A stretch of 52,886 bases of DNA from positions 1-52,886 of IMG/VR virus record IMGVR_UViG_3300044644_001839. The stretch is one strand, 5' to 3'. Below are positions 13,708 through 52,824 of this stretch, in pieces. The position numbers and the translations under genes are program-made. The notes under the pieces were generated by a model, which ran no database searches, was not told the origin of the DNA, and saw only the letters and a list, made by a program, of their open reading frames with translations. Positions within the stretch are counted from its first letter, which is position 1. Every line of letters begins with the position of its first letter. This DNA comes from a virus.

Positions 13708-15573
13708 TTAATACAGACCATGTCCTGGTAATTTACCAGTTCTTGCCACATGCTGACCGAATGTTTCTTTCTTTTCATTATAATCAGGTGCTGTTTTTTT
13801 CGCTTGTAATTTCTCGTTTTTATACTGTCTCGCATTAGAAGCTAATTGACTACGTATATTAGCTAATTCTTCACGTCTAGCTGCAGGTAAAGCCGCAGTT
13901 TTCTTAGTATTTTCAGCTGAAGTATTAAATTTATGAGGCGTCATTGCTATAATACGTTCTGGTATAACTCCAACCGCTGCCATAGATTTAACTGCATCAA
14001 TAATAGATTTACCAGTATCAACATTATCATCAACTAATATAATACTTTTTCCGTTTAATTTATCTGCATAATCTTCATGTAATATTTGAAATCTATAATA
14101 TCCTTTACCACGATCCCCACCAGATCTAGCATACGCATTATGAATTTTAAATGGGTTTGATAATACCGCATCGTATAATGTTTCCAATGATTTATTATAT
14201 TCATTCGATAATGATTTAAGTTGAGCTTCTAAATCCTCAGCTGCTTTTAATTTAGCTGCATTATCCGGATCATCTTCCCAATTAATTAATGCATATTCAT
14301 ATGCTTGTTGTAAACTATCATAATGTTTAGCAAATCTTTGAATATTAACGATATGAACTTGTTTTTGATATTGGATAGTTTCTTTACCTGATGGTCTAGT
14401 TATAGCAATATCCGCTTTAGGTAGTGAATCTCGTTTTTTACGTAAAACGTCAATATCTTTAATAATCTTTGTATATTGTGGTGTATGTCTATGTTGTTTA
14501 ATAGCTAAATCGCTATCTAACTTATGAGTTCTATTATAAGTCGCTAATTCATTTAACTTCGCATTAATTTGATCTTTTAAATCAATATATTCATCAGTTA
14601 TTGCATGACGCAACGCGATTAACAATTCTTTTAATTTATCGGTTGGTGTCGCCGCATTAACAACTTCTTCACCATCATCCGCAACATTTCTCGCCGCATC
14701 ACCTAAAATTCTCATTAAATCTTTAATTTGACGCAATAATTTAGTAATATTTGGCGAATAAGTATGATTATCCATCTCATCAACCATTTTAATATGGAAA
14801 TTAGATGGTAATCTAAGTAAATCCCCATGTTTGATAGTTGTTGTCCATTTGGATAATCGGGGCCATGAATTTTTTAATAATGCACCTGATTCAATTTGAG
14901 CTCCACCTAACCTTTCACTAAGCGTATGGGCGAACGAACTAACTAATTTAGAACTAGATGATAATGGGACAATAATGATATTATTTCTTTTTTTATCTGC
15001 TTGTTTGCCCGTTTCCATAAATGGTTGGATAAAATCGGTATACGCCTTACTAAAATCTGCTCTATCGAATCCTTTTAAAACTGGTGGTTCTTTCATAGCA
15101 TTAATTAATCTAGTCACGCTATGATCAACGATAGATTGAATATCTTTCTTATCCATTAAATGTCTCGGATCGCGTTCTTTTACTGCAGACATAAACCCGT
15201 GAGTTTTTAACATTTCTTCTCTAGTTAATGGATTTTTAAATAATTGATAAGCATGAAATACTTTAATTATTTGTTGCGGTGATTTCATTTTATAATTAAT
15301 TTTTTTAGCTTCGTCGAATTTACCATCAGCTTCTAATGATTGACGTTGCTTTCTTAAATTATCCTCTAAATTCTTAAAGAAATCGCGTTCTTCTTTTGTA
15401 TAATTAACTTCTAGTTTTTCACATCCCATAGTTGATAAATCGGAATTACTACCAGCTACAAACTTACCATTATCTTCCATATCATGCATAATCGGTTCAT
15501 GCTTATAAACACCATCACCTTCAGGCGTTTCGCCGATCTTACTCATTTTAGTTACAACTTCACTTAATAACAT
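13708..15573 (-). CDS. Phosphoribosyltransferase-domain protein with head-targeting-like leader
   Basis: A 621-residue protein. The C-terminal part holds a type I phosphoribosyltransferase signature, IILVDDNVDTGKS (about residues 515-527), which binds PRPP. An earlier segment, IIIVPLSSSSKLVSSFAHTL (about 200-219), could be the start of the same split domain, as in competence-type PRTases. Between them lies a long helical, partly coiled-coil insertion. The N-terminus MLLSEVVTKMSKIGE ends in I-x-E, fitting prohead-protease cleavage, and the gene shares a late promoter with the leader-bearing gene upstream. The substrate is unknown. I infer a head-carried enzyme. Confidence 0.75.
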   Translation of the reverse strand: MLLSEVVTKMSKIGETPEGDGVYKHEPIMHDMEDNGKFVAGSNSDLSTMGCEKLEVNYTKEERDFFKNLEDNLRKQRQSLEADGKFDEAKKINYKMKSPQQIIKVFHAYQLFKNPLTREEMLKTHGFMSAVKERDPRHLMDKKDIQSIVDHSVTRLINAMKEPPVLKGFDRADFSKAYTDFIQPFMETGKQADKKRNNIIIVPLSSSSKLVSSFAHTLSERLGGAQIESGALLKNSWPRLSKWTTTIKHGDLLRLPSNFHIKMVDEMDNHTYSPNITKLLRQIKDLMRILGDAARNVADDGEEVVNAATPTDKLKELLIALRHAITDEYIDLKDQINAKLNELATYNRTHKLDSDLAIKQHRHTPQYTKIIKDIDVLRKKRDSLPKADIAITRPSGKETIQYQKQVHIVNIQRFAKHYDSLQQAYEYALINWEDDPDNAAKLKAAEDLEAQLKSLSNEYNKSLETLYDAVLSNPFKIHNAYARSGGDRGKGYYRFQILHEDYADKLNGKSIILVDDNVDTGKSIIDAVKSMAAVGVIPERIIAMTPHKFNTSAENTKKTAALPAARREELANIRSQLASNARQYKNEKLQAKKTAPDYNEKKETFGQHVARTGKLPGHGLY

Positions 15574-15599
15574 ATTAAAATCTCGCTTATAAATTAGTG

Positions 15600-16247
15600 T
15601 TAACCACTGTGTTTTTTCTGATGTAATTTTTTAGTAGATATAACTACTAATTGATGAGCTCCGCTTGGACCGTGATCCCAAATCTTATGTTCTTTTTGTA
15701 ATTCAATTAAATGATGAACTGTTTTTACCAAATGAATTTGTTCTTGTTTTTTATTAAAATGATAAACATAAAATGCACCATCATGTTCGGTATGAGTTTG
15801 TTTAACTAATTTCGCCCAATAATTCATACCCTTCGGTGTATGAAATTCATCAGTGGTAATAGTTCCGTATTTAGGTAATAACTGCTCGAATACTAATTTA
15901 CTAGGCCAACCATGGAATTCTTTTTTATGTTGTGGGCTAACCCATAAAAAATTTTGGAAAACATATCTACCTAAAATTTTATCGGTTTTAACCACACATC
16001 TAGATAAAAAACAGACTTGTTCGTTTTTATTATCTAATCCAACATATTGGAAGTTAAAATCTTTACCTCGTTTCGCATCGATTCGAACTAATATAATATG
16101 ATCATTGATCTGCTTAATTAATTGATGCGATTGCATAATCAAAGTATCGTATAATTTATGATTATGGTCGTGATCATTAACAAATTTTTTCGAATCAATG
16201 GGGTCAATCAATTGCGGGTTTTCAAATAATAATTCATTAAGTTTCAT
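15600..16247 (-). CDS. Acetyltransferase-like protein with head-targeting-like leader
   Basis: A 215-residue, His- and Lys-rich protein. The N-terminus MKLNELLFE fits the M-x-L-x-x-L-L-x-E leader found on several proteins here and would be cut after Glu9. The middle (VFEQLLPKYGTITTDEF, GMNYWAKLV) resembles a phage GNAT-like group in which a Y.x.L...G.i.sD...t..G...W..L block is typical; this is recalled and not certain. A perfect late box lies 27 bp upstream. The gene is followed after 26 bp by the phosphoribosyltransferase gene, so the two form a late operon. Confidence 0.65.
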   Translation of the reverse strand: MKLNELLFENPQLIDPIDSKKFVNDHDHNHKLYDTLIMQSHQLIKQINDHIILVRIDAKRGKDFNFQYVGLDNKNEQVCFLSRCVVKTDKILGRYVFQNFLWVSPQHKKEFHGWPSKLVFEQLLPKYGTITTDEFHTPKGMNYWAKLVKQTHTEHDGAFYVYHFNKKQEQIHLVKTVHHLIELQKEHKIWDHGPSGAHQLVVISTKKLHQKKHSG

Positions 16248-16273: not shown

Positions 16274-16281
16274 TATTTATA
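16274..16281 (-). promoter_or_regulatory. Late promoter box TATAAATA
   Basis: Perfect T4 late box on the minus strand, 27 bp upstream of the acetyltransferase-like gene. Confidence 0.8.
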
Positions 16282-18838: not shown

Positions 18839-20132
18839 AGATTTTTTTGATAATGAATTCAAGCAATTTTCTATTGCTGATTGTATACGTTCTATTCCCT
18901 CAGTCGTTGATGGATTTAAACCATCGCAACGAAAATGTATCTTCGGAATGATTAAACGTGGTGAAAATGCGGGCGAAATTAAGGTAGCTCAGGTTTCTGG
19001 GTATATATCCCAAGTAAGTGATTACCATCACGGCGAAGCCAGTTTAAACGAGACTATAGTAGGTTTAGCGCAGAATTATACTGGTAGTAATAATATTAAT
19101 TATTTTAAACCAAATGGCCAATTCGGAAGCCGGTTATCTAGTGAGTCATCGGCTCCTCGTTATATTTTTACTGAATTTACTGATAATTTTAGAAAAATAT
19201 TTAAAAAAGAAGATGATATTATTTTAAATCATTTAGATTCTGATGGGCAATCAATCGAACCCGATTATTATTTACCTATATTACCAAATATATTAATAAA
19301 TGGGGCGCGAGGTATGGGAACTGGTTATGCGACTCATATATTAAAATATAATCCAATAGAATTAAAAGAAAATATATTAGCTTTGTTATCGGGCAAAGAA
19401 CCGCAGCAATTAATGCCTTGGTATAATGGTTTTAAAGGAACCATTAGTATGAATGGTGATCAAGTTTTAAATATAGGCGTTTATGAAATAGTAAATTCAA
19501 CGACCATTAGAGTTACTGAATTACCTATCGGCATTTATCAAGATGATTATAAAGCCCACTGTATTAAATTACAGGAACAAGGTCTTATTAAAGACGTAGA
19601 TGATAGGTCAACTGAATCATCATTCGATTATATTTTTAATGTTCCTAGAACAACGACTCAATTACCGCATGACGCAATATTAACTAAATTTAAATTAATA
19701 GGTAAGGATACCCAAAATTTAACTGCGTGGACGGAAGATGGCTTTATTAAAGTTTTTAAACAAGTTCAGGATATTATTGATTATTTTGTCGCATTTAGAT
19801 TAGAGAAATACGAAGAACGTAGAATTAAATTATTAGAAATACTAAACGAAGAATTAGTTTGGTTATCGGAAAAGCGTAGATTTATTAATTGGTATATTGA
19901 AAATAGTAAGTTATTTTCAAGTAAAAGTAAAAAAGAATTAGAACAATTATTAACTGAAAATAATTTTAATCATATTAATGATTTGTTAGATATACGCTTG
20001 TATCATTTAACGAAAGATGATATATTTAAGCTAGATAAAAATATAGAAAGAATTGAAAAAGATATACAAGCATTAGAAAAAACTAATTGTATTAAAATGT
20101 ATAAAAAAGAACTAGCCGAGCTAGAAATATAA
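18828..20132 (+). CDS. 52: DNA topoisomerase II medium subunit, gp52-like
   Basis: A 434-residue DNA-cleaving subunit of the T4-type topoisomerase (GyrA/ParC-like). Visible motifs are SVVDGFKPSQRKCIFGM (residues 26-42), HHGEASL (67-73), the active-site Tyr112 in APRYIFTEF, and ARGMGTGYATHI for the conserved QGNFG-to-GMAT region. A coiled-coil arm lies in the C-terminal third. Length is close to T4 gp52. It overlaps the preceding small gene and completes the operon with the large subunit. Confidence 0.95.
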   Translation: MKVKDFFDNEFKQFSIADCIRSIPSVVDGFKPSQRKCIFGMIKRGENAGEIKVAQVSGYISQVSDYHHGEASLNETIVGLAQNYTGSNNINYFKPNGQFGSRLSSESSAPRYIFTEFTDNFRKIFKKEDDIILNHLDSDGQSIEPDYYLPILPNILINGARGMGTGYATHILKYNPIELKENILALLSGKEPQQLMPWYNGFKGTISMNGDQVLNIGVYEIVNSTTIRVTELPIGIYQDDYKAHCIKLQEQGLIKDVDDRSTESSFDYIFNVPRTTTQLPHDAILTKFKLIGKDTQNLTAWTEDGFIKVFKQVQDIIDYFVAFRLEKYEERRIKLLEILNEELVWLSEKRRFINWYIENSKLFSSKSKKELEQLLTENNFNHINDLLDIRLYHLTKDDIFKLDKNIERIEKDIQALEKTNCIKMYKKELAELEI

Positions 20133-20590: not shown

Positions 20591-21835
20591 TTATTTTTTA
20601 GATTTTTTTTTGGCTTTTTCTTTATTTAAATCTTCCTGCCATTTAGGAACCCATTTTTCTTTTTTGGCTTTTTTGATCGCTTTATCAACTGAACCTTTAT
20701 ATTCATCAGTTCCTGATTCAATTTTACCATCGCCGTCATAGTCTTTGCTTGCTTTTTTAGCTTTCGATTTAGCTTTAGATTTTGATTTCCCCATACAAGC
20801 TTCATTCATAATACGTTCTGCAACTAATTTAAGTTTTTCTTCGTATGATAAATCAGATGATTCATTAATAATTACAGTTGATGTAATTGAATCATCGAGT
20901 GTTGATAAGAAAGAAAATTCGCCGAATGATTCACGAACACCTTCTTCGCCGTCAACATGATAATGCTTTTTAATTAATATATTTAAAAGATCTTTATAAC
21001 CTTCAAATTGACTTAAGTATGTAATATCGCCGGGGACTTTAATAATATTTTCATTCTTTTCGTTTTGGAATTCGTTTTTAGCAACAATGATACAAAATTT
21101 ACGAACTGATGTACTAGTTGGATTCGAACTGGCACTTTTACCGGCCCAAATAACGATAACGTCATTCTCACCACCTGAATTATAACTATCAAACAAATTA
21201 TCACTACTATCGACCGCAGTACACCATTTTACTTTACCTTCAGAATCAAAAGGACGTAAGAATGTTTGGCCGAATTGAATCGATTGTTGTTTACTACCTA
21301 ATTTAACGGCATAAAAGCCTTCGTGATGTGGATCATTAATAATAACTTGACCGTAAGCGCCAAACCCACCTTTATTAACTATACGAGTTAATGATGATTT
21401 TGCGGTTGAAGTTTTAGCAAATTGATCTAATATGTGAGTAAACTCATGAAAATCATTATATGCTGGGTTATTAATATCATTTTGCGGTAAATTAGCTGAA
21501 TGAGTTTCAAAATAAGCTAATTCCTCTTTAACTGCTTTAAATTGATTTAATGAGAAGCTATTAGGCTGAGCATACCATTGGCAAATACGTTTTAAGTATT
21601 TTGCTTTAGTTGCCGGAGTAACCATATGCAAACCAATCCATTTAATAACTTCTAATGAAGTTTGTAAATTTTCTGCACCTAATCCTTCGGGTAAACGTTT
21701 AGCTTCAGATTGGTATTTTTGCCAAACTGGTAAGCTGATACTTTTATCATTATTAATATCATCTTCTTTTGCTTCGAGTAACAATTGACTTTCGGATAGT
21801 AATCCAGCCAATTGTAAAATGCGATCTAATTCCAT
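20591..21835 (-). CDS. KWCTA-motif virion protein with head-targeting-like leader and DxDGDG tail
   Basis: A 414-residue protein. The N-terminus MELDRILQLAGLLSE ends in L-x-E, fitting prohead-protease cleavage, and resembles the C-terminus of the scaffold protein (ILRLAGLG). The middle has KWCTAVD (residues 203-209) followed by a beta-rich segment (DVIVIWAG...KFCIIVAKN), a pattern I recall from phage proteins of unknown function. The C-terminus has a Lys-rich stretch and the loop DYDGDGKIES, like a calcium-binding EF-hand loop, then KGSVDKAIKKAKKE. A late box lies upstream, and it is divergent from gp21. I infer a head-packaged protein. Confidence 0.75.
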   Translation of the reverse strand: MELDRILQLAGLLSESQLLLEAKEDDINNDKSISLPVWQKYQSEAKRLPEGLGAENLQTSLEVIKWIGLHMVTPATKAKYLKRICQWYAQPNSFSLNQFKAVKEELAYFETHSANLPQNDINNPAYNDFHEFTHILDQFAKTSTAKSSLTRIVNKGGFGAYGQVIINDPHHEGFYAVKLGSKQQSIQFGQTFLRPFDSEGKVKWCTAVDSSDNLFDSYNSGGENDVIVIWAGKSASSNPTSTSVRKFCIIVAKNEFQNEKNENIIKVPGDITYLSQFEGYKDLLNILIKKHYHVDGEEGVRESFGEFSFLSTLDDSITSTVIINESSDLSYEEKLKLVAERIMNEACMGKSKSKAKSKAKKASKDYDGDGKIESGTDEYKGSVDKAIKKAKKEKWVPKWQEDLNKEKAKKKSKK

Positions 21836-21868: not shown

Positions 21869-21876
21869 TATTTATC
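21869..21876 (-). promoter_or_regulatory. Late promoter box GATAAATA
   Basis: GATAAATA on the minus strand, 34 bp before the KWCTA gene. Together with the box at 21889-21896 it forms a divergent pair. Confidence 0.6.
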
Positions 21877-21920: not shown

Positions 21921-22577
21921 ATGACGTACAAAATGAAAACACAATTTTTAGTTGAGACTTTGACCTACGATCAGGGTAATTTGATCCAAGAATCAGTCGT
22001 AGATACCGAAGGTAAAAATTTATACTTATCTGGTTGCTTTATGCAAGCAGAAACAAAAAACAGAAACGGTAGAATTTATCCAATTACTGAAATGCAAAAT
22101 GCCGTTGCTAGATTAACTGAACAAATTAAACAAACCGGCGGTGTTTGGGGTGAATTAGATCACCCACCATCATTACAAGTAGCTAGCGATCGAGTAAGCC
22201 ATGTAATACAAGAATTACGAGTTGAAGGTAATAATGTTTATGGTAAAGCTAAAATTCTAAATACTCCAATGGGCCAAATCGCTAAAGTTTTAATTACTGA
22301 AAGTGGTGTTAAACCTGGCGTAAGTAGCCGTGGTGCAGGAGAAGTAAACGAGCAAGGTATAGTAAGTGGATTTAATTTAATTACGGTTGATATAGTTGGA
22401 ACACCAAGCTGCGCAAGCGCATATCCAACATCAATTTATGAATCATTAGATGAATCAGTTAAAGGTCGTCGTATTTTAACACTAGCTGAATCAGTACAAG
22501 AAGATCAATCAGCTCAAAAATATTTAGTGACTGAAATTAAAAAATGGTTGGATAGTAGTTTATTTGTAAAAAAATAA
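21921..22577 (+). CDS. 21: Prohead maturation protease, gp21-like
   Basis: A 218-residue serine protease of the T4 gp21 type (S78/U9-like, herpesvirus-assemblin fold). It cuts the scaffold and head proteins after (L/I)-x-E during maturation. GELDHPPS carries the catalytic His81, and GVSSRGAGEV the catalytic Ser (135 or 136). GCFMQAETKNRNGRIYP is the conserved N-terminal block. ATG 21921 and ATG 21933 are both possible; GGA lies better for 21933, which would remove four residues. The segment TLAESVQED near the C-terminus could be a self-cleavage site. A convergent terminator follows. Confidence 0.95.
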   Translation: MTYKMKTQFLVETLTYDQGNLIQESVVDTEGKNLYLSGCFMQAETKNRNGRIYPITEMQNAVARLTEQIKQTGGVWGELDHPPSLQVASDRVSHVIQELRVEGNNVYGKAKILNTPMGQIAKVLITESGVKPGVSSRGAGEVNEQGIVSGFNLITVDIVGTPSCASAYPTSIYESLDESVKGRRILTLAESVQEDQSAQKYLVTEIKKWLDSSLFVKK

Positions 22578-26800: not shown

Positions 26801-27372
26801 TTTCTAGTGCAGCGAATACTGCATTAAATATTGGTGGGACTGCATTATTAACTAGAATGATGATGGGCGCAGGTGGGGCTGCTGTTGCTGAAGGTGTAGT
26901 TGGTGCGTTAGCTGTTGGTGGTGTGGTTGCAGCGATTGCCGCTATTTTAGTCGGTGGTGGATATTTAGCATCCGAATACTTATCTGAGGGTAAAGGTTCT
27001 AAGAGTATGTCATTACCCGGGGGTGATGCAGAATCACCAACCAAAACACAACGACATGCGACTGGCGGTTCTGGATATAAACCATATAATAGTGGTACCA
27101 CTGAAACAATACCAACTGAAACTGGACGGCAAAATGCGGTTATACCTAGTGAGGTAATAGCAAATGCTGGAGATGATCAAATAGCTAAAATGATTGAATT
27201 ATTGGGTGATATTAAACAAAATGATGCGAATATGGCTATTAAAAAATTCAATAACTCATTTGATGAAGTGGCGAAGATTATAAAAACTTGGTGGGACGAG
27301 AAACAAGCTGAACTCACCCCACCTATTAAACCAACTGATAATAGACAACCACCGGCAGCTAAAACAAATTAA
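23875..27372 (+). CDS. Large structural protein, tape-measure-like
   Basis: An 1165-residue, mainly alpha-helical protein, rich in Ala, Gln, Asn and Lys with long coiled-coil stretches. Near the C-terminus (about residues 980-1042) lies a Gly/Ala-rich hydrophobic segment (GALAVGGVVAAIAAILVGGG). Tail tape-measure proteins share this build: long helices, then membrane-inserting segments. T4 gp29 is only 590 residues, so if it plays this role the tail would be longer than in T4. An internal or inner-tail protein is the alternative. AGGTGAT lies 5-11 bp before ATG. It precedes the baseplate block, and its stop overlaps the convergent stop of the next gene by 3 bp. Confidence 0.55.
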   Translation: MAAQDATSLFTQFLYEAARQQSSVASITADAVAEVAEFNTRMRGASKSAKETFSALDNLKAQIKEVNKQQQIAARSTDTLSKSLDKNSSKFTQYSLNAIRSLRAASEEFQKAAASSSAYFKKSLNPLENIITLKKFTDAQATLVKSLNASAGLITNENYNIVKRFVDMGKSANIMSTAFKDIETQFNNTTKATMEANASILGSISAADFATRQAASILLRDAKENQTKYNKVFDDATNALEKMAKDLHNVDLTQSLSSQYKNITDFYNSYKRSLRQLNDAGMDSNDAIAKLNSDQRFVIFDQSIANLIDALKDNAGVLNNVTKEAAEKYLAAGQTAGTINDVSANPMTNFLNTGNRVDQTVIQELERQITQSMVEMRNTLANLLGTTQLEISKRLIDQAELSNKSLTKILDELTDTAKGVFYNWDKMNSEFSSEFTKHMQSLGLSFNGLDEGIVKLRRYGDLHEATMKELILSGGYINEANAVKLENYVAFAASMKLITPEIEELCEKLHQFNSDGSAGPISNGVLERLEEVSNQIQHGLIKTSDAFAKHNKTFSSILSRNLREQGGIFSNFIADMADVRRTGTTSDGRDRGDVIAGFKGQIAANLIPAIKKFFEENISYIQGRAVGQSRFVGGVDRGFMSDMQIGEPDYFKLMQENRSTALAAGGNEAFKAKLASQRDVWEQILGPLPKDILEASLQMEQINQAIGGAMNEQDIRNYQRSIQANNYMFGADPKAQQAATSAIVKTTNAQRMLAGLDDKLAKKKVEEIASHFAYAKSLKMSDEAAQQFAEAMAIGSKIMTPQQSAEATGGMMNLIGILQHAGELQDITSADKRRAAEIAGKGPELATEDEMNFMRELIRKIELAKAEYTQSKRDSSGYVSGVDAKQIGNLNRLMDEFKSKLPEAFQIAGEAIGGTLSTAKKSPIASPGMNIPEEQKKLIPLLTDMSLQNQQTFIERIASANATLKAWTDTLGGSTVSSAANTALNIGGTALLTRMMMGAGGAAVAEGVVGALAVGGVVAAIAAILVGGGYLASEYLSEGKGSKSMSLPGGDAESPTKTQRHATGGSGYKPYNSGTTETIPTETGRQNAVIPSEVIANAGDDQIAKMIELLGDIKQNDANMAIKKFNNSFDEVAKIIKTWWDEKQAELTPPIKPTDNRQPPAAKTN

Positions 27373-28496
27373 CGGGGTGGTTGTCCCTGCGGTTGTTGTT
27401 GTGGTTGACCTTGCTGTTGTTGTGGATTACCTTGTGGTCTTCCGCCAGCTGATTGTTGTTGCTTATTAATATTTAAAAGTTGATTTTGTAATCTTTTAAC
27501 TTGATCATCATAAACTTTCATAGCACGATTTTTACGAACATTTAAATCTGCGATTTGAGTTTGAATACGTAATTCATCATCATTAATATCTTCATTAATA
27601 TCTTTTAAATCAGAATGCATAAAATCTAAAATTGACATGGCTCCCTCGTAAGTAGCATTATTGTTTATTTCACTTCTGTATTTTGCTAATTTAGCAACAC
27701 GTTCTTGTTCTTTTTTATCATCGTTTTGTTTTTTAAAATGTTCTTCTGCCCGCAACATATCTTCTTCATTCTTAACTTTAATATTAGACATTTGAATAGA
27801 TAATTTCGCTTGCTCAGCTTCCGCTTCTTTAGCTTTCGCATTAGACTCCGCCGTTTTAGCATCAGCGTCTGCTTTTAACATATCAATAACTTTTAATAAT
27901 AAACTTGAGCTATCTTCTGGTTGACCAATTTCTTGAGGAGTATTATCATCTGGTTTAATATCACCTTCTGTTCCAGGTTCACCCTCGGGAGGCATTTCAC
28001 CTTCGTCACCTTCTGGTGCACCTTCTGGGTTATCTAATTTATTATCAACTTCTTCATCTTCTGGTAATTTAGGCCATTCGACGAATAAGATATTAAATGA
28101 ATTGCGTAAATTAAATAAAATTTCAGCAACATCTAAAGTTTGATCATCATCTAAATACTCACCTAATGCTCTTTTAAAAGCTTCGTCTTGTTCTTTATCG
28201 ATATAAACTTTAGTAATATTACCTTCGGCGTCTTCGATACCATAAGCAATAGAGTTATCTTTTAATTTATTTTCTTTTTCCGCGCCATTTAATTTTGATA
28301 ATACATCTTCAGCACTGAACTCATCAGATTTAACAACTGATTCAAAAAATGTTTTTAATCTTCTTTTTTTGCCCTTTTTGGCGGCACTACCATCTCGAGT
28401 TATCATACCGAATAGCGAACCTCGGGTTCCAGCAACATTACCAGCTGATACACAACCCGCCTCCCCATCTTCTCTTAAAAATTCTGAAAAAATCAT
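27369..28496 (-). CDS. Acidic coiled-coil virion protein with head-targeting-like leader
   Basis: A 375-residue protein. The N-terminus MIFSEFLRE fits the leader with cleavage after Glu9. Next comes GEAGCVSAGNVAGTRGSLFG, which I recall from hypothetical T4-like virion proteins. A basic patch (KKGKKRRLK), an acidic Pro/Glu/Gly-rich middle (about residues 145-190), a long Ala/Lys/Glu coiled coil and a Gln/Pro/Gly-rich tail follow. It is divergent from the protease gene, with its late box at 28549-28556. It may be a core or internal head protein. No enzyme motif is seen. Confidence 0.7.
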   Translation of the reverse strand: MIFSEFLREDGEAGCVSAGNVAGTRGSLFGMITRDGSAAKKGKKRRLKTFFESVVKSDEFSAEDVLSKLNGAEKENKLKDNSIAYGIEDAEGNITKVYIDKEQDEAFKRALGEYLDDDQTLDVAEILFNLRNSFNILFVEWPKLPEDEEVDNKLDNPEGAPEGDEGEMPPEGEPGTEGDIKPDDNTPQEIGQPEDSSSLLLKVIDMLKADADAKTAESNAKAKEAEAEQAKLSIQMSNIKVKNEEDMLRAEEHFKKQNDDKKEQERVAKLAKYRSEINNNATYEGAMSILDFMHSDLKDINEDINDDELRIQTQIADLNVRKNRAMKVYDDQVKRLQNQLLNINKQQQSAGGRPQGNPQQQQGQPQQQPQGQPPR

Positions 28497-28548: not shown

Positions 28549-28556
28549 TATTTATT
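28549..28556 (-). promoter_or_regulatory. Late promoter box AATAAATA, divergent
   Basis: AATAAATA on the minus strand, 3 bp from the plus-strand late box, 53 bp before the coiled-coil protein gene. Confidence 0.6.
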
Positions 28557-32600: not shown

Positions 32601-32992
32601 ATATGAGTGGATTATTATCAAAATTACCATTAAATAATGTAACTGACATGCTTTCTAATGTTCCATTACCTGGTTTAGGCGATGCATTAAATAATATTCC
32701 CGGATTGGAAATGGGTAATATTATGTCGAATATGTCACCGGAAATGGCGAATACTGCATTATCATGTATGGCTCCAGAAAAAATTTCAGATATGGCAAAT
32801 GCAAATACGATGGATGCTAAACCGACTCCAAAGACTGCTAAAATAGCCGCATTTCCAACTAGAATACCGAAGCATGAACCTTGGGCTAGATCTGATAATA
32901 TGAGTGATACTGATAAAACTCAAAAATATAAATACGATGATCCACAAATAGGAAAAGATAATTCACCTCGCAGTAAATATTGGAGAAGATAA
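29693..32992 (+). CDS. 5: Baseplate hub/spike protein, gp5-like, with ~580-residue repeat region and no lysozyme
   Basis: A 1099-residue protein. Residues 1-120 form the gp5/VgrG-type OB fold (VEGSVVDTNDPQNRGRIKV, AYGFWATPKVGAIVAV, DPTRRVYIGC). Residues about 220-440 form the beta-helix spike (IYINTAEGNSWIELDQDG, then many SVSG, SMSG and NAT repeats). Residues about 445-545 are Gly/Ala-rich GALGE-type repeats, and about 545-1025 consist of 25 or more units built on LPDIGGILNK. The C-terminus has RIPKHEPWAR, seen in other gp5-like proteins. T4 gp5 (575 residues) carries a lysozyme domain; none is visible here. It starts 11 bp after the previous gene. Confidence 0.88.
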   Translation: MYSGASNPYTTIVEGSVVDTNDPQNRGRIKVYCQDYGDLPSTDYENLPWCRYISPFGGLVNSDEMTRGSGDHKTKGGVAYGFWATPKVGAIVAVMCLGGDPTRRVYIGCMPPVNAEHTMPHGRFIGEDGNDGPYSSEEQPIQPLYDNLKKAFGDDKGKHEFKSRAADVSVTGLTQDHIDNQTTPSKQKDSTSGYKKSRLQPNLKNSATDANYDSQIYSLTTPGFHALSFDDSQDNCRVRLRTSSGHQVIFDDTNERIYINTAEGNSWIELDQDGTIDIFGTQTISINSDKDINLHAANSIRLNAKDIHLNAENNLNLTAAKDINKNATNITSSASDNYSVGSKTCGISAQKSMGITGESTSVSGDRTASVSSLMTSVSGKGMMSMSGAMTSVSGMGMLSMSGGTASVSSKSALNLAGKMTNVTGALVTVASPAILTGVEPNPVGGALSGVGAAISGALGEVGSAVGEVAGEIGGALGEAMGALGDAMGAVTDTIGGVMGEVSGALGDVMGELGTAINDVTGELSSLAGEVGGALSTEFTAAMGQLNSVMNSMPNIMDTVMHQLPDMSGIMNSISDNIGDVLANMPDLGNVLPDIAHMLPDIPDISNIMGGLPDIGGILNKMPDVGGLLSKLPDVGNLLNKLPNIDLGGIMNKLPSLDLGGVMNNISNLHMDTILNKLPNMGTTIHALASGNLGNVLGKVSNNLLPEVLNSLPNINGTLTNLSHNVVGDCLNRLPIDNISHVLSQMPDTHIGSMLSTLPIKQINNVMHQLPSGVIPNAMSGLSTHILDTLPDFPNAKVSDIKSTIPRVDISSISSQLSKITNAPIHDFMSGADLGHVLNNIPGVHAANVLLDAPKHICGDILTNIPGLQSGQLLKAIPDAHTLFDGLADHHVGDLLGKLPGGDLTHMLDQFPNTEKFLSDISGGSLGNMFNNLPGGDISKVLDGIPDVNGILSKLNGADFGNLMSKLPINDMSGLLSKLPLNNVTDMLSNVPLPGLGDALNNIPGLEMGNIMSNMSPEMANTALSCMAPEKISDMANANTMDAKPTPKTAKIAAFPTRIPKHEPWARSDNMSDTDKTQKYKYDDPQIGKDNSPRSKYWRR
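31018..32770 (+). repeat. Degenerate repeat region inside the gp5-like gene
   Basis: About 580 codons of short degenerate repeats: first Gly/Ala units such as GALGEVGSAVGE, then units of 11 to 24 residues starting with LP, MP or IP, for example LPDVGNLLNK, LPNIDLGGIMNK and LPSLDLGGVMNN. The DNA is not exactly repeated, so the repeats are old and under protein-level selection. Confidence 0.85.
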
Positions 32993-33784: not shown

Positions 33785-33800
33785 GAGGATAACAAACTCC

Positions 33801-33808: not shown

Positions 33809-33849
33809 TCTCTTATTATAAACTTACCCTTATTTCAGAAAAGACATAT

Positions 33850-43075: not shown

Positions 43076-43104
43076 TAATATGGGGAGCTAAGCTCCCCAT
43101 ATTT
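43076..43104. terminator. Bidirectional terminator
   Basis: Stem AATATGGGGAGCT / AGCTCCCCATATT between convergent genes. Confidence 0.95.
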
Positions 43105-43721
43105 TAAATATCTATATATTCATTAAAGAATTCAATTCCGTCTGAATTTCGATATGATAATATATTCCCTTGATCGTCATATGTTTTATGTATTTCGTAA
43201 CCAGTAGCTAATTTTATATAGATACAATTACCATCTTTATCGTATTCTAATATATCATTAGTTGTATTGCGAATAGAAACATTACTGGGTTCATTTAGAT
43301 CTTCGCTACTATACTCATACCAAATAACTTCACCTTCATTATCATCAATATAAATTAATCGATTTAATGCATCGAACTCTTGGAATAAGTAATTTCCTAA
43401 CGAATCCGAATAACTAACTAAATTACCACTAAGGTCATAATCCGACATACATTCATGACCATCTAATTTTTTAGTCGCCCCCATTGGGTTTCGTTCGCCT
43501 TGTTCATCTTCGTAAATAAACGCACGAAAAAATTCACCTTGACTGTCAATATTACTCCAAAATAATCTTGATCTAGCACTATCCGACATATCGATCGGAT
43601 ATTTTTCTTCTAAAATAATATCACCATCAACGATTGTTCGATATCCAATTAACCGCCCCTCTAAGTCATAATCATTTTCAAAATTAGCGCCTGAGCCACT
43701 ATGAATTTTTAATTTTCGCAT
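43104..43721 (-). CDS. Small YD-repeat (RHS-like) protein
   Basis: A 205-residue protein made almost wholly of YD repeats: NDYDLEGRLIGYRT, SDYDLSGNLVSYSDSLGNY, FDALNRLIYIDDNEGE, EYDKDGNCIYI, KTYDDQGNILSYRNSDG. YD repeats usually occur in very large RHS/teneurin toxins or adhesins as beta-sheet shells; here about seven units stand alone with no toxin domain or signal peptide. I choose ATG 43721, just after the stop of the preceding gene; GTG 43730 is an alternative. No promoter directly precedes it. Function is unknown. Confidence 0.8.
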   Translation of the reverse strand: MRKLKIHSGSGANFENDYDLEGRLIGYRTIVDGDIILEEKYPIDMSDSARSRLFWSNIDSQGEFFRAFIYEDEQGERNPMGATKKLDGHECMSDYDLSGNLVSYSDSLGNYLFQEFDALNRLIYIDDNEGEVIWYEYSSEDLNEPSNVSIRNTTNDILEYDKDGNCIYIKLATGYEIHKTYDDQGNILSYRNSDGIEFFNEYIDI

Positions 43722-43722
43722 A

Positions 43723-43935
43723 TTAAACACCGGTTCTTAATTCAAATTGTTTTACACAATTAAGTACTACTTGATTAGCTTCTTCTGCTTCGATATCACT
43801 ACGATCGTCGATATATTCTAACAATCTATTAACCGCAGCTTGAACATCAATTTCTTTTAACATATGAGCCGCAAACATACTTAAAATAAAATCATTAAAT
43901 TCATCTGAAGTAAATTGAACATTAACATAATCCAT
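43723..43935 (-). CDS. Small acidic helical protein
   Basis: A 70-residue acidic protein (FTSDEFNDFILSMFAAHMLKEIDVQAAVNRLLEYI) with AAAGGAT before ATG. It shares an operon with the YD-repeat gene, 1 bp apart. I do not recognise the family. It could be a partner of the YD-repeat protein, which is only a guess from context. Confidence 0.7.
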   Translation of the reverse strand: MDYVNVQFTSDEFNDFILSMFAAHMLKEIDVQAAVNRLLEYIDDRSDIEAEEANQVVLNCVKQFELRTGV

Positions 43936-43959
43936 AATTATCCTTTTTTATCTAGAGAA

Positions 43960-43991
43960 AGAGATGTAGTTTTAATTAAAACTACATCTCT
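43960..43991 (-). terminator. Terminator-like palindrome after paralogue A
   Basis: A perfect inverted repeat with arms AGAGATGTAGTTTT / AAAACTACATCTCT and loop AATT, 8 bp past the stop at 44000; followed by TTTCTCT on the minus strand. Confidence 0.85.
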
Positions 43992-43999
43992 ATATTTAA

Positions 44000-44794
44000 T
44001 TAAATTAACTTAATAGATAATTGCTTACCGACTAATTTAGCTAATTTCGAAAGTAATTCGATATCAATAGTTTCTTTTTTAGTTAACTCTGCACACCAAG
44101 TTAAACAATTAGATAGATCATCAATACTTAAAGATTTATTAGCAACTTCCAGTAGAACATCATTTACGAATTTAACTGAATCAAAAGTTTGATTAATTGG
44201 TTCGACTTTATCTGATTTAATTCCATCCGAATAACGACTAGATACATTAATCTTATCTGGGTTAATTCCAACATTTAATATTTTAACATAAACATTACCA
44301 TTATTAGTATAAACTTCGGAGGTCGTATTATATTCACTATTTGAAATATTTTGTTTAACTATCGGTAACCATTTTTCCGCCCCATAAAAAACAATAACCC
44401 AATCATTTTTAGAAGGATACGCATCACTAGTTGTATAATCATATCTAGGTATTTGAACAATATTAGTTATTTTTTTACGATAATAAGTTCTTAAATTTGA
44501 TAATGGAACTTGAGGGATACCTTTTGCATTATTTTTATCCTCTTCTGATTTATAAAATCGGAGAATAATATTATTATCTCGTTGATATCCTTCGATTTCG
44601 AAATCAGATAATCGATGATTACGAGAAATTGATTTAACTATTTCATCAGCTGAAACAGAACCGCGAACTTTATTAAATGTACTACTAAATCCGAATGACG
44701 TTTCATTTGTATATAACTGTTGATACGAACTTGGATGAACACCTGAGATAATGGTTAATAATTTATTTAAATCTTGTTTATTAATATTGGCCAT
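44000..44794 (-). CDS. Unknown early protein, paralogue A of three
   Basis: A 264-residue protein that shares two blocks with the next two genes: a central block (TYYRKKITNIVQIPRYDYTTSDAYPSKNDWVIVFYG here) and a C-terminal block (DIELLSKLAKLVGKQLSIKLI). The latter resembles the last helices of HTH-XRE antitoxin-like domains (LLaKLA.LLGKKL.I). It has its own early promoter (44828-44856) and ribosome site AAAGGAAT. Function is unknown; a DNA- or protein-binding early regulator is possible. Confidence 0.75.
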   Translation of the reverse strand: MANINKQDLNKLLTIISGVHPSSYQQLYTNETSFGFSSTFNKVRGSVSADEIVKSISRNHRLSDFEIEGYQRDNNIILRFYKSEEDKNNAKGIPQVPLSNLRTYYRKKITNIVQIPRYDYTTSDAYPSKNDWVIVFYGAEKWLPIVKQNISNSEYNTTSEVYTNNGNVYVKILNVGINPDKINVSSRYSDGIKSDKVEPINQTFDSVKFVNDVLLEVANKSLSIDDLSNCLTWCAELTKKETIDIELLSKLAKLVGKQLSIKLI

Positions 44795-44827
44795 GAAGTT
44801 ATTCCTTTTTGTTAAATTAAAAATAAT

Positions 44828-44856
44828 ATTATACTACTTTAATACTTAAAAGTCAA
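44828..44856 (-). promoter_or_regulatory. Early sigma70-type promoter of paralogue A
   Basis: Minus strand TTGACT (44856-44851), 17 bp, TATAAT (44833-44828). Confidence 0.9.
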
Positions 44857-44865
44857 CACTTAGAG

Positions 44866-44899
44866 AAACTAGATCGGACTTAATTGGCCGATCTAGTTT
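44866..44899 (-). terminator. Terminator-like palindrome after paralogue B
   Basis: Perfect 12-bp arms AAACTAGATCGG / CCGATCTAGTTT with a 10-base loop, 9 bp past the stop at 44908. Confidence 0.85.
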
Positions 44900-44907
44900 T
44901 AAATAAT

Positions 44908-45780
44908 TTAAACTAATTCAATTTGAACTTTTTTACCCATTAATTGCGCTAATTTAATAGTATCATCGATTGATGCGCAATTATTTAAAACGTTAAAGAT
45001 TTCAGTCGACGATGCCATAAATTTATTAGAATCGATTTGACCCGATGCCATCGATTTAGTTAATAACTCGATAAAATTAGAAGTATCAATCTGAATAGAT
45101 TCTTTTACTTTAGGAACACCAGTCGATTTAAGTGCATGTTGGATCGTTGGTTTAACTATAGTTTTAACTTCAGTTTTAGTAAAGTTCGGTTGTTTTTGTA
45201 ATTGCTGATAGAAACTATTAGGAATGCTTAACTGTAATTTATCATCAACTGTAGTAACAGTAACGGACCCGGATAAAACACTATTATTAATTTTATTATG
45301 AATCTGATCAAAATTATTTGATGTATAACGATAATAAACGACAATCCAATTATCATAACTCGGATAAACATCACAAATTGAATATTCGCTAGTATTAAGC
45401 TGTAAGATATTATTAACTAAACTTCTAAAATATCTACGCGACTCATTGCGTTCTCGTTTTTTAGCCTCGGGATCATATTTTTCAATAGTTTTATTTTCGA
45501 CTGGATTTAACATAACGACTGGCTTACGATGCAATTGAAATAATAAACTATTATCCGGATTCATTTTAGTAACGATATTGAATTCTTTAATCAATTGTGA
45601 TTTTTCAATATTTTTAGAAACTAGTTGAGCATCTTTAGATTCATGTAACTTTACCGAACAACCAAATCCGTAATCAACCAGATTTACAGCTAATCTACTA
45701 TAACGACTAGACGGAATATCGATTGCATGTTTAAAACGTTTGTACATTTCAACTCGTGTTTCACTCGTTCTTTGATTCAT
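44908..45780 (-). CDS. Unknown early protein, paralogue B of three
   Basis: A 290-residue protein with the shared central block (FRSLVNNILQLNTSEYSICDVYPSYDNWIVVYYRY) and C-terminal block (SIDDTIKLAQLMGKKVQIELV). An N-terminal region (DIPSSRYSRLAVNLVDYGFG) aligns with the SGVHPSSYQQLYTNETSFGF region of paralogue A, so a short motif of the same kind may be repeated within each protein. Own early promoter at 45813-45841. Confidence 0.75.
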   Translation of the reverse strand: MNQRTSETRVEMYKRFKHAIDIPSSRYSRLAVNLVDYGFGCSVKLHESKDAQLVSKNIEKSQLIKEFNIVTKMNPDNSLLFQLHRKPVVMLNPVENKTIEKYDPEAKKRERNESRRYFRSLVNNILQLNTSEYSICDVYPSYDNWIVVYYRYTSNNFDQIHNKINNSVLSGSVTVTTVDDKLQLSIPNSFYQQLQKQPNFTKTEVKTIVKPTIQHALKSTGVPKVKESIQIDTSNFIELLTKSMASGQIDSNKFMASSTEIFNVLNNCASIDDTIKLAQLMGKKVQIELV

Positions 45781-45812
45781 TTTACTTTCCTCGTAATTGT
45801 TAAAAAAATAAT

Positions 45813-45841
45813 ATTATACTACTATAATACTTTAAAGTCAA
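45813..45841 (-). promoter_or_regulatory. Early sigma70-type promoter of paralogue B
   Basis: Minus strand TTGACT (45841-45836), 17 bp, TATAAT (45818-45813). The -35 overlaps the stop codon of paralogue C. Confidence 0.9.
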
Positions 45842-46350
45842 GCAAATTGTATAATTAATTTTTTATGATTTAAATCGGCGAGTTTTGCTAATAGATCGAC
45901 CGTAATATTAGTATCGGTTAAATCTAATAATTGAATAAAATCTTGTTTAGATAAATTTAATTTTTCGCATATAAAGTCAGTATCAACATTATGCTTTAAT
46001 TTATATGCGAAAAATTGTTCGATTATTGATATTTTAAAATTTTCTTGACCAGTAAATATATGATGATCGATTAATCTATTAAATTGATGAGGTATTAGTT
46101 TAATTATAGTTTTAGAACCAGATAAAACAAATCGAACATCAAAATCCCAAAATTCGGCTAAATGACTATTTAATAAATCATTTTTTAATAAGTTTATATT
46201 AATGGGAGCGTAATCATAATAAGTAATTATCCAACCATCACCTTGCTTATAACTATCAATCCGTTTATATTGAGAAGATCCAATATTTAAAATATTTTTA
46301 ACTTCGTTTCTAATTTGTGATCTAAATGCTGTTTCTTCTTCATTACTCAT
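45838..46350 (-). CDS. Unknown early protein, paralogue C of three (short form)
   Basis: A 170-residue protein. It starts directly with the central block (IRNEVKNILNIGSSQYKRIDSYKQGDGWIITYYDY), lacking the N-terminal part of A and B. Its C-terminal 50 residues (DFICEKLNLSKQDFIQLLDLTDTNITVDLLAKLADLNHKKLIIQF) most clearly resemble an HTH-XRE domain. It overlaps the preceding 41-residue gene by 8 bp. The early promoter lies at 46499-46527. Confidence 0.75.
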   Translation of the reverse strand: MSNEEETAFRSQIRNEVKNILNIGSSQYKRIDSYKQGDGWIITYYDYAPININLLKNDLLNSHLAEFWDFDVRFVLSGSKTIIKLIPHQFNRLIDHHIFTGQENFKISIIEQFFAYKLKHNVDTDFICEKLNLSKQDFIQLLDLTDTNITVDLLAKLADLNHKKLIIQFA

Positions 46351-46528: not shown

Positions 46529-46536
46529 GATAAATA
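46529..46536 (+). promoter_or_regulatory. Late promoter box GATAAATA
   Basis: GATAAATA on the plus strand, 27 bp before the leader-bearing gene at 46564, next to the -35 of the divergent early promoter. Confidence 0.65.
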
Positions 46537-46563: not shown

Positions 46564-47577
46564 ATGAGATTACAACAATTACTCGATGAAGTACAAAACC
46601 CGGAATTGGATCAGAATGCATCGGCATATGACCAGTTATTACCTTATAAAAATGACCCAGATGTTTACATTAAATTTTCTAAATCATCTAGATTTGGTAA
46701 AGTGCAGAAATCGAATGATGATGTACCGGTAGGTTTATATGCATATCCATTAAAACAAACATGGGCAGATTTTAACGTAGAAAAAACTAAAAATTTTGAT
46801 AATTATCCTTACGCAAATAAAAGACCTTATATTCACGTATTTAAATATTCATTTCCAATTACAATAATTGATTCTTATAAAAATATTGACCGTGATGCTC
46901 ACGTATTAAAAAGTAGATATTCTCATTTAGTTAATTTAGATCAAGAATTAGAACGTTTAAGTTATAAAAAACCATTTGAACAATTATGGCGATTAACAAA
47001 ACATATAGCAAATGAATTAAGCCCAAATAATTATAAACCACATTGGACTAAAATATTAAGAGCCTTAAACATGAATGGGTTTAAAGATAAAACTGGAACT
47101 GCTCATAAAGGTGATGCGGCTCAAGTATTTTTATTAAAGCCAGAAAGTATTTTATTATTAGATACGATTAAGAATAAAGATTATAAAAAATTAAAAACTA
47201 AAACTGCAGATATTAATTCTATTGGTGATGTAATTAGAGAATTAGATAATAAATCAACTAAAGTTCGTAGCGTTTTATTAGCCTCAGATGGCGATATGCA
47301 CGAACAAATTCAACAACATTTAGAAACAAAAGCTGATCAAAATAAATTATTTAATTATTTAGATGGAAGAAGCGAATCAGATATTAAATTATTATTATTA
47401 ATATGGTTAAATGGAGTTGTCGATTTTAGAAAATTAAATACTCAATTATTAGATTATAAAAATACTATTTTAACTGGAACATCAGAAGCATTAGTTGATT
47501 ATGGAAAACATATGATTAAATTTAAATGGAATGATGACGTATTAAAACATAATATAGAACTATTTAAATCAAAATAA
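46564..47577 (+). CDS. Phage protein with head-targeting-like leader (VPVGLYAYPL family)
   Basis: A 337-residue protein. The leader MRLQQLLDE fits the M-x-L-x-x-L-L-x-E type with cleavage after Glu9. The next part (IKFSKSSRFGKVQKSNDD, VPVGLYAYPLKQTW, RPYIHVFK) and a later GDAAQVFLLKPESI recall a phage family I know only as hypothetical; the GLYAYPL block may act like the GxY segment of ADP-ribosyltransferase-like folds, a weak guess. The late promoter and leader suggest a head-carried protein. It is the only plus-strand gene between early minus-strand genes. Confidence 0.7.
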   Translation: MRLQQLLDEVQNPELDQNASAYDQLLPYKNDPDVYIKFSKSSRFGKVQKSNDDVPVGLYAYPLKQTWADFNVEKTKNFDNYPYANKRPYIHVFKYSFPITIIDSYKNIDRDAHVLKSRYSHLVNLDQELERLSYKKPFEQLWRLTKHIANELSPNNYKPHWTKILRALNMNGFKDKTGTAHKGDAAQVFLLKPESILLLDTIKNKDYKKLKTKTADINSIGDVIRELDNKSTKVRSVLLASDGDMHEQIQQHLETKADQNKLFNYLDGRSESDIKLLLLIWLNGVVDFRKLNTQLLDYKNTILTGTSEALVDYGKHMIKFKWNDDVLKHNIELFKSK

Positions 47578-51305: not shown

Positions 51306-51563
51306 ATGCGATATTCGTTTAGACATTCAGTGGATGCAGTTAAATGGGACGGATCCAATTTTATAGAAATACATAAATTAGCATCAAATTATAAATTACA
51401 AAATTTTTTAGAATATGATGCTGATAATGCATTGTTGATTGTGGATGGAGATCATGCTGAGCATGGAGCATACGTTGCAGTATGGCCGACAACTAAAGAA
51501 GTAACGCAAATAGTAGTATATGGTGAACAATCATTTGAATACCAATTTGGTAAATTACATTAA
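51306..51563 (+). CDS. Small phage protein (VDAVKWDGSNF type)
   Basis: An 85-residue protein with the pattern YSFRHSVDAVKWDGSNFIEI, GDHAEHGAYVAVWP and FEYQFGKLH. This recalls short phage proteins that begin with a VDAVQWDG-type segment and end with a beta strand; function is unknown. GGAG lies 8 bp before ATG 51306. It has its own early promoter. Its stop overlaps the convergent kinase gene by 4 bp. Confidence 0.75.
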   Translation: MRYSFRHSVDAVKWDGSNFIEIHKLASNYKLQNFLEYDADNALLIVDGDHAEHGAYVAVWPTTKEVTQIVVYGEQSFEYQFGKLH

Positions 51564-52267
51564 TACCATTTATCAACTTTATTAGGTAATGGTTGAATTG
51601 TTTTTTCGCCACTATCTAATAAATCATTCATCAATTGTTTACCGATTGGATTCTGCACCGGACTATTAAAAAAATTATCAATTCTAGATAAATGATCGTC
51701 CAGTGCACTATCTGATTTTAATAAAATAAATTGATGTTTTTTAATTCTCATATACTTACCAATTTCATAAAGGCGGTAATCCTCATGATGATGCATTTTG
51801 CGGATATGGTCATCACTTACATATCGATCTCGGGTTTTAGCTCTTTCTAATGATTGTTCTAAATCTATTTTTTTATAGATCATCATTAAGTCATAACCGT
51901 GTTCTCTCATTACTGACATGCGTTCGACTAATTGAGCGACATCTGATGCTGTAGTATCTACGATAATTGGTAACATACCAGCTAAATATAATTTTAATTG
52001 AGCGGTGGTTAAATGCTTTGCTCTTCTTCTAATACCTTTAGCTTCCGGTTGATCTATTTGTTCTTTAGTTGATATTGGTATATCATGTTTTTTACTAAGA
52101 TATTCATAAAATTGATCGTAGTTAAGAACTTTAGGCATTACGCCGGTAACTCGTCTAATTTGATTAACGATCGTACTTTTACCGCTAGCTGGAATCCCAC
52201 CTAGAAATAAAGCTTTAAAAATACCTTTATCATTAATACCTTCATTTAATAATTCAACTAATCTCAT
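51560..52267 (-). CDS. Zeta-toxin-like P-loop kinase with head-targeting-like leader
   Basis: A 235-residue protein. The leader MRLVELLNE fits the M-x-L-x-x-L-L-x-E type with cleavage after Glu9. A P-loop kinase domain follows: FLGGIPASGKST (21-32), VLNYDQFYEYL, IIVDTTASDVAQLVERM, and YKKIDLEQSLERAKTRDRYVSDD, which looks like the lid of zeta-toxin/AAA_33-type kinases. Such kinases act on nucleotides, sugars or RNA ends; the substrate here is open. Its ATGA start overlaps the stop of the preceding leader-bearing gene. I infer a head-carried kinase. Confidence 0.8.
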   Translation of the reverse strand: MRLVELLNEGINDKGIFKALFLGGIPASGKSTIVNQIRRVTGVMPKVLNYDQFYEYLSKKHDIPISTKEQIDQPEAKGIRRRAKHLTTAQLKLYLAGMLPIIVDTTASDVAQLVERMSVMREHGYDLMMIYKKIDLEQSLERAKTRDRYVSDDHIRKMHHHEDYRLYEIGKYMRIKKHQFILLKSDSALDDHLSRIDNFFNSPVQNPIGKQLMNDLLDSGEKTIQPLPNKVDKWY

Positions 52268-52824
52268 GATTGCAGCTCGGTTTTAATTCGATTATAAGTT
52301 TTTTCGCTAATTAAGTAACAATCATTTGCGAACATTATTTCATGGCCGGAACGTATAGCAATTTGTATTTTATCAGTTCTATATGTATCAAACGCATCAT
52401 CTATTATACGCTTAGTATCAGCATTATTCATATCATGATGATCAACTAATAATTCAAATAAATCAAACCATTCTTTCGACCAAGCAAATTTTAAATCTCC
52501 GATAGGAAAAACAACAACCGGAGTACCATAAACTTCAGTTGCGAGTTTATTACCACAGACAAAAATACCATTACGAAACGGAAATCCAAATTTCTCCATA
52601 AATTTATCATTTAAATATTGATGAATTTGTATAATCGTATCTGATGGTCGTCTATTATTAGTTCTTGGTGATATTTTAACGATTTCTTTAGTTAACTCTT
52701 GGTTAACGCCTCTATAAATCGGAGTTCCATTAAGATTTATAAACGCTTTAAGAAATGGCCCACAATCTCGTTTAATTAACGATGCTGGGTTTGAATCATC
52801 GGTTAATAATTCGACTAATCTCAT
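52264..52824 (-). CDS. Possible ADP-ribosyltransferase-like protein with head-targeting-like leader
   Basis: A 186-residue protein. The leader MRLVELLTDD starts identically to the kinase leader but has Asp where Glu is expected. PIYRGVNQE (35-43) resembles the first-strand Arg motif of ADP-ribosyltransferases. NRRPSDT, FGFPFRNGIFVCGN, FPIGDLKFAWSKEW and a C-terminal SGHEIMFANDCYLIS (possible catalytic Glu) follow in the order I recall from a phage hypothetical group. The T4 precedent is Alt, an ADP-ribosyltransferase packaged in the head. The assignment is inference. The C-terminus is homologous to the partial gene upstream. Confidence 0.65.
   Translation of the reverse strand: MRLVELLTDDSNPASLIKRDCGPFLKAFINLNGTPIYRGVNQELTKEIVKISPRTNNRRPSDTIIQIHQYLNDKFMEKFGFPFRNGIFVCGNKLATEVYGTPVVVFPIGDLKFAWSKEWFDLFELLVDHHDMNNADTKRIIDDAFDTYRTDKIQIAIRSGHEIMFANDCYLISEKTYNRIKTELQS

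Follow-up and report, generated by a model that had tools for sequence, protein, structure and literature searches.

The window analysed here comprises all 52,886 nucleotides of IMGVR_UViG_3300044644_001839 and encodes seven proteins that begin with a leader of about 5–20 residues ending in L/I-x-E (Table 1). Their open reading frames and N-termini lie at the coordinates and on the strands given in a first-pass annotation, which had also, correctly, placed a glutamate at residue 9 of four leaders (proteins at 51560, 46564, 15600 and 27369); the leader ends at Glu5 in the proteins at 13708 and 52264, and at Glu15 or Glu21 in that at 20591. The bodies behind the leader are unrelated, with different Pfam or PHROG families or none. 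The window also carries the head genes for the major capsid protein gp23, which has 267 relatives in viral contigs, a gp22-like scaffold, whose homologs (39–61% identity) adjoin gp23 in relatives, and, as previously recognized, a gp21-type prohead protease.

Table 1 Leader-bearing proteins and head genes of the window (slashes mark putative cut sites)
Feature	Position	Strand	Leader or terminus	Late box	Remarks
Major capsid protein gp23	6692..8092	-	predicted propeptide cut LTE/T at Glu41, read from sequence		
gp22-like scaffold	8152..9087	-	starts MNEILKKLLAE/S; ends RLAGLG at C-terminus		
621-aa protein	13708..15573	-	short leader MLLSE/VVTK at 15559-15573		follows 15600 by 27 nt on the same strand
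215-aa protein	15600..16247	-	MKLNELLFE/N at 16221-16247	TATAAATA (exact) at 16274-16281	phrog_1349, unknown function
414-aa protein	20591..21835	-	LAG-type leader MELDRILQLAGLLSE/SQLLLE/AKED at 21773-21835	GATAAATA at 21869-21876	
gp21-type S77 prohead protease	21933..22577	+	MKTQFLVE/T	about 44 nt upstream	PF03420 1.4e-29; 56% to XacN1
Acidic coiled-coil protein	27369..28496	-	MIFSEFLRE/D at 28470-28496	AATAAATA at 28549-28556	
337-aa protein, unknown fold	46564..47577	+	MRLQQLLDE/V at 46564-46590	GATAAATA at 46529-46536	
P-loop kinase (AAA_33/zeta-toxin-like)	51560..52267	-	MRLVELLNE/GINDKGIFKA at 52241-52267		
YRG-family protein, possibly ADP-ribosyltransferase-like	52264..52824	-	MRLVE/LLTDD at 52798-52824		

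The earlier identification of the protein at 51560 as a kinase holds, with both AAA_33 (1.3e-10; 42.2 bits against a cut-off of 27) and Zeta_toxin (26.8 against 22.3) above their cut-offs. All 28 homologs from viral contigs (identity mostly 28–36%) keep [hydrophobic]-x-E before [GS]-IND; since the conserved glutamate is also retained within a fusion protein of Atu_ph07, it may partly serve the domain. The family of the neighbouring protein at 52264 has Asp or Asn at the position equivalent to Glu9; its conserved site is L3-x-E5 and not, as had been proposed, one near Glu9; tandem paralogs lie just upstream, two in genome G001 and three in the relative G011. R38 and E162 are invariant in this family and a YRG motif is present. 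Searched with the AlphaFold model (pLDDT 87, residues 1–9 below 50), the PDB gave nothing at or below E 0.001, the hit to pertussis toxin coming fourth with E 1.3, and a PDB profile search with the family gave no ADP-ribosyltransferase match, which leaves the suggested ADP-ribosyltransferase unconfirmed.

In the other families, too, the leader persists in diverged homologs though adjoining residues vary. Homologs of the protein at 46564, whose predicted structure is of low confidence (pLDDT 63.5, pTM 0.40) and for which a PDB profile search gave nothing useful, start with MKLVELFE/A and MKLYELFE/A; those of the protein at 15600 start with MLLSELLLE/T, MKLSEVSILHE/T and MKLTDIILE/S. The latter protein had been read as a possible acetyltransferase, but a Pfam search returned no family of that kind, GNAT or other. 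The protein at 13708, with a weak Pribosyltran match near its C-terminus (residues 505–556, 6.7e-5, 22.7 bits, below the cut-off of 26.3), belongs to a family with leaders such as MLLNE/IATD and MFKILSE/IHTT, in which L-x-E at residues 3–5 is conserved instead of the Glu15 formerly taken as its cut site. For the protein at 20591, homologs carry MELNRMLQLAGLVSE and MQKDLNRLLELAGMPIDWNIIVE/AKED, and the LAG motif of its leader recurs at gp22 C-termini. Finally, an alignment of five sequences of the 27369 family shows only M1, L7, E9 and A22 as invariant among residues 1–50. Homologs back the start proposed for this protein, with which it scores 8.2 on the leader profile described below. In many relatives the protein is conserved with tail genes as neighbours; it may therefore be a permanent head-core component and not an effector.

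Kinase-family leaders from other phages, the window being excluded, served to train a profile with which we ranked 53 window proteins. The top eight included four of the seven proteins, namely those at 51560 and 46564 (first and second), 15600 (fourth) and 20591 (sixth), together with gp22 (fifth), gp23 (seventh) and gp21 (eighth); the protein at 13708 ranked only 28th on this Glu9-type profile. Applied as a control to 269 T4 proteins, a profile from kinase leaders placed gp24, Alt, gp21, IPII and IPIII in its top 10 (AUC 0.895 and permutation p 0.0005 with the window left out), which, with the conservation in diverged homologs, bears out the proposed likeness to T4 head leaders. Counted independently, the pattern M-x-[LI]-x-E-[ILV] occurs six times in this genome in its 107 kb version against 0.12 expected from shuffles, and seven times in G011 against 0.22; the excess of leaders over shuffles was modest in G004, G008 and G013. 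Motif matches included a DUF723 protein as a false positive. In jumbo phage CBB, where the top match, a Clp-like ATPase, was likewise false, a search for a tagged set yielded none beyond gp22/gp23; because it has almost no such leaders, CBB serves as a specificity control only, and its virion proteomics was set aside as a direct test.

Late boxes (NATAAATA) lie 34–60 nt upstream of the genes at 15600, 20591, 27369 and 46564. The earlier claim of late promoter boxes stands for these four, the genes at 13708, 52264 and 51560 being internal to operons. Across relatives, a late box (a predicted promoter) precedes 35 of 50 leader genes and 260 of 1075 others (p 4e-11, a value that overstates independence because the genomes are related). 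By class, the share is 65% for long leaders, 75% for short ones and 7/7 for the LAG type, against 25% for other M[KR] starts and 24% for the rest. Some relatives group these genes: G010 has eight tagged genes within about 7.6 kb, and Atu_ph07 has 11 consecutive ones within CDS 31–76, a cluster for which mass spectrometry detected 29 proteins in virions, data that apply at the cluster level (PMC6102473). Adjacency of leader genes was significant in G010 and Atu_ph07 only, the test in the window genome being not significant. With the relatives included, the tagged bodies comprise kinase, CCA-adding enzyme, NadM-like, HAD-like and PARP-like proteins.

These sequence comparisons give good support for identifying the leader as a T4-type capsid-targeting sequence (CTS) carried by unrelated late proteins. 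In T4, packaging needs no more than 10 CTS residues, and an Asp at the cut site of IPIII stops processing with targeting unaffected (PMC9026906). We consider it probable (roughly 0.8) that the seven proteins are late-made, head-delivered and injected cargo of a jumbo phage of the T4 superfamily. The leader and its conservation, the protease gene, the late boxes and the arrays in relatives are read from the sequences; for targeting, cutting and injection, T4 is the model. By analogy, the short amphipathic address would bring each protein into the gp22-type scaffold core during prohead formation, the gp21-type protease would then cut most tagged proteins after L/I-x-E, and DNA would be packaged around them, both entering the next host together.

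A much less probable alternative is that the leaders do target the prohead core, many tagged proteins being assembly factors that are consumed or retained there, like gp67, gp68 and gp22, rather than effectors. The acidic coiled coil at 27369, which most relatives keep next to their tail genes, would fit such a role, as would the equivalent N-termini of gp22, gp21 and gp24; however, the kinase, CCA-adding, NadM-like, HAD-like and PARP-like bodies and their patchy, array-wise gain suit cargo better than scaffold. Of the original proposal, a set of unrelated late bodies sharing a leader stands; an effector role is less certain for the protein at 27369, which may belong to the core.

That the resemblance is compositional, M-K/R followed by a short amphipathic helix being common in small phage proteins and L-x-E arising by chance, appears very unlikely. 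The modest excess in three genomes and the clear false positives noted above agree with it, but the glutamate is invariant within families having unrelated bodies, and the recovery of T4 substrates and the strong late-box association, absent from other M[KR] starts, largely refute it. Less credible still is a late-phase docking signal for tail, baseplate or portal with only incidental likeness to the T4 CTS, an idea suggested by the G011 array directly downstream of a gp5-like baseplate gene region, since the profile retrieves T4 head-core substrates and not tail proteins, and gp22 shares the LAG form.

Returning to injected cargo, the address appears to take three forms: long (Glu at 8–12), short and Alt-like (M-x-L-x-E/[ILV]) and LAG-type (RxLxLAG..LxE). 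More tentatively, these forms and an Asp variant packaged uncut might constitute a code that loads many enzymes into each virion as a repair and counter-defence kit, to which the CCA-adding tRNA-repair enzyme and the NadM-like NAD-synthesis enzyme of relatives could belong, with LAG as a docking motif common to the scaffold C-terminus.

The set resembles T4 IPI, IPII and IPIII in combining a short N-terminal address ending in L/I-x-E with unrelated bodies and a gp21 protease; it differs in its enzyme bodies, its three address forms and the runs of tagged genes in related phages. T4 itself carries three small inhibitors of GmrSD restriction enzymes (PMC12373910). The start of T4 Alt, an ADP-ribosyltransferase packaged in the head, is MELITELFDE; possibly cut after Glu6, it recalls the M-x-L-x-E/[ILV] form in the families of the proteins at 52264 and 13708, whereas the YRG family has no sequence or fold match to solved ADP-ribosyltransferases. 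Polyvalent proteins and head-packaged ADP-ribosyltransferases predicted in myoviruses likewise combine diverse enzyme domains with presumed early injection. The grounds for predicting them were fusions to MuF or portal proteins and the genes nearby (PMC5512222, PMC9503650); for the proteins described here, mostly single-domain, the ground is a predicted cleavable N-terminal address. In giant phages such as SPN3US, the prohead protease is reported to cut head proteins, and the head to hold a bolus of ejection proteins (PMC5694885, PMC7411985). Those phages form another lineage, likened here by description only.

The tagged set would be a wider version of the known T-even strategy, new in that breadth, and points to a wide range of ready-made proteins, for the most part unstudied, that would enter along with the DNA. 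To our knowledge, the function of most jumbo-phage genes has yet to be established. If an N-terminal address marks injected proteins, the sequence by itself would suffice to list effectors, each of which could then be tested singly, as was done for IPI–III. Compared with small restriction inhibitors, the cargo would be more varied, taking in kinases and, among relatives, tRNA-repair and NAD-related enzymes; if so, repair and counter-defence would act ahead of any phage gene expression, in the first minutes of infection.

The window, a whole virus record of 52,886 bases, is part of the genome of a large myovirus of the T4 superfamily. In protein comparison its gp21-type prohead protease was closest to that of Xanthomonas phage XacN1 (56% identity), followed by those of Stenotrophomonas jumbo phages, PA5oct-type phages, Atu_ph07 and the Salicola phage SCTP-2. 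A 107 kb contig (G001) represents the same phage in reverse complement and extends the sequence at both ends. The seven leader N-termini listed in the first-pass annotation are all present as described (proteins are named here by start coordinate, and a slash marks a predicted cut site). To limit circularity, we trained a nine-position profile on kinase-family leaders alone. With the window's own P-loop kinase (51560) left out, it ranked that kinase first among the 53 window proteins, followed by 46564, a 1,165-aa protein, 15600, the gp22 scaffold, 20591, the major capsid protein gp23 and gp21. A prohead-protease address would be expected to bring up head-assembly proteins beside the candidates, and three of them (gp22, gp23, gp21) were retrieved. 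The 1,165-aa protein starts MAAQDATSLFTQFLYE/A; its rank may reflect chance, since its N-terminus has no alignable homolog.

Because this same profile also separated known T4 gp21 substrates and internal proteins from the remaining T4 proteins (AUC 0.895, permutation p 0.0005), the leader is, judged by sequence, a T4 capsid-targeting sequence (CTS) in kind, beyond likeness of outline. It is known that T-even internal proteins have nothing but the leader in common and ip genes have been identified through it (PMC3012670, PMC12373910). With the window kinase included, the top ten of 269 T4 proteins were gp61.1, gp2, gp24, a modA-region protein, Dda, Alt.-1, Alt, gp21, IPII and IPIII. The best T4 match, gp61.1, has 54 aa, and our literature search found no paper naming it an internal protein; the second, gp2, is the DNA-end protector.

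The long leader (Glu at 8-12) persisted within families. The kinase has 28 homologs on viral contigs, mostly 28-36% identical, and every one carried M[KR]..[FYL][LIM]xE or a close form ahead of [GS]-IND. In the family of the acidic coiled coil 27369, which may be a core protein, overall identity was 53-66% and the first 50 residues were poorly conserved, with only M1, L7, E9 and A22 kept. Homologs of 15600 began MLLSELLLE, MKLSEVSILHE or MKLTDIILE, and those of 46564, for which structure prediction gave no usable fold, MKLVELFE/A or MKLYELFE/A.

Two proposed cut sites had to be revised. For the 621-aa protein 13708, Glu15 had been suggested; the conserved site in its start, MLLSEVV, is E5, as its homologs begin MLLNE/I and MFKILSE/I. 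The YRG-family protein 52264 is one of three tandem paralogs (the other two lie just past the window end, in G001), a relative has an equal trio, and all six start M-[KR]-L-x-E-[ILV]. Around position 9, where cutting near Glu9 had been envisaged, all six have D, N or another residue rather than a conserved E. Short leaders of this kind, M-x-[LI]-x-E-[ILV], are strongly enriched in the clade (6 seen vs 0.12 expected in G001; 7 vs 0.22 in G011); a pattern count found none of this exact form in T4, whose nearest analogue is the Alt start MELITE/L. Since Asp at the cut site of T4 IPIII stops processing while targeting still occurs (PMC9026906), the 52264 trio may, by analogy, be packaged uncut, or else cut at E5. 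More distant YRG-family members, in Atu_ph07, SCTP-2 (MKINELLNE, MRISQLLKE), G010 and G005, do have the canonical Glu. Invariant R38 and E162, the only basis of the label, would make 52264 a putative ADP-ribosyltransferase (ART); its predicted model is confident (pLDDT 87) and resembles many uncharacterised jumbo-phage proteins, and a fold search returned no match among PDB structures. ARTs in myovirus heads have been predicted from fusion and neighbourhood (PMC9503650).

A third form begins 20591: MELDRILQLAGLLSE. Further N-termini among relatives show RxLxLAG[LMI] and then L-x-E, and four nearby genes in G004 share the start MLTLTEQNRIRKLAGMxLLTE. The gp22-type scaffolds of G001, G003, G005, G006 and Atu_ph07 have RLAG[LI] or KLAGI at their C-terminal end, and chance expectation was below one LAG motif per genome in every case. 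We infer that LAG could be a docking motif common to scaffold and cargo. Our literature search found no paper that extends this kind of leader to jumbo phages or describes the short or LAG forms.

Features discussed in the text, with their positions
Feature	Record	Position	Motif or leader
gp22-type scaffold, C-terminal RLAG[LI]x	window	8152-8175	LAG-leader motif
gp22-like gene, C-terminal RLAG[LI]x	Atu_ph07	171475-172719	LAG-leader motif
Four LAG-leader genes	G004	30435-35535	
SPFH/prohibitin-like protein	window	11611-12477	
1,165-aa protein	window	23875-27372	
Neighbours 44000, 44908, 45838	window	43104-46350, minus strand	
gp61.1	NC_000866 (T4)	18966-19130, minus strand	MKTFKEFIKE/DMVAGD
gp2	T4 genome	76061-76885, minus strand	MAIFQIINE/S
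Eight tagged genes	G010	54.5-62.2 kb	
CCA-adding enzyme	G010	57561-58988	MKFLDYISE/A
NadM-like nucleotidyltransferase	G006	85308-86093	MTKTFKQYLIE/E

Late-promoter ATAAATA boxes are concentrated 30-50 nt upstream of starts in this phage group. Among genes with an upstream gap of at least 40 nt, 35 of 50 leader genes had a box vs 260 of 1075 others (p 4e-11, which overstates independence as related genomes share orthologs). The share was 65% for long, 75% for short and 7/7 for LAG leaders, vs 25% for other M[KR] starts and 24% for the rest. In the window, no box preceded the topoisomerase, clamp-loader, RNA-ligase-like, nucleotidyltransferase or sirtuin-like genes.

The motif gave false positives: DUF723 proteins and a Clp-like ATPase. 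Jumbo phage CBB, whose virion proteomics is published, has no leader set apart from gp22 and gp23, so the tagging strategy is patchy. One window protein looks SPFH/prohibitin-type by eye. CBB_29, annotated Band_7 and possibly related to it, was detected in CBB virions by mass spectrometry. Elsewhere in the window, three neighbours with similar C-termini look like diverged paralogs.

Packaging, cutting and injection of the tagged (leader-bearing) proteins are predicted by analogy with T4. Atu_ph07 has 11 tagged genes in succession, one fusing a YRG-type domain with the kinase, two proteins that are neighbours in the window. This run sits within CDS 31-76 (46 CDS), for which the cluster-level figure in PMC6102473 is 29 virion proteins by mass spectrometry, nearly all unassigned. 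A tagged protein of 1,319 aa in G009 matches PARP weakly. Besides the kinase and two YRG-family proteins, the G010 array encodes a CCA-adding enzyme (PolyA_pol, 1e-34), and this genome also has a tagged HAD-phosphatase-like protein. The CCA-adding enzyme would possibly provide injected tRNA repair, and the tagged NadM-like protein of G006 (CTP_transf_like, 1.1e-5) is possibly a head-packaged NAD-synthesis enzyme.
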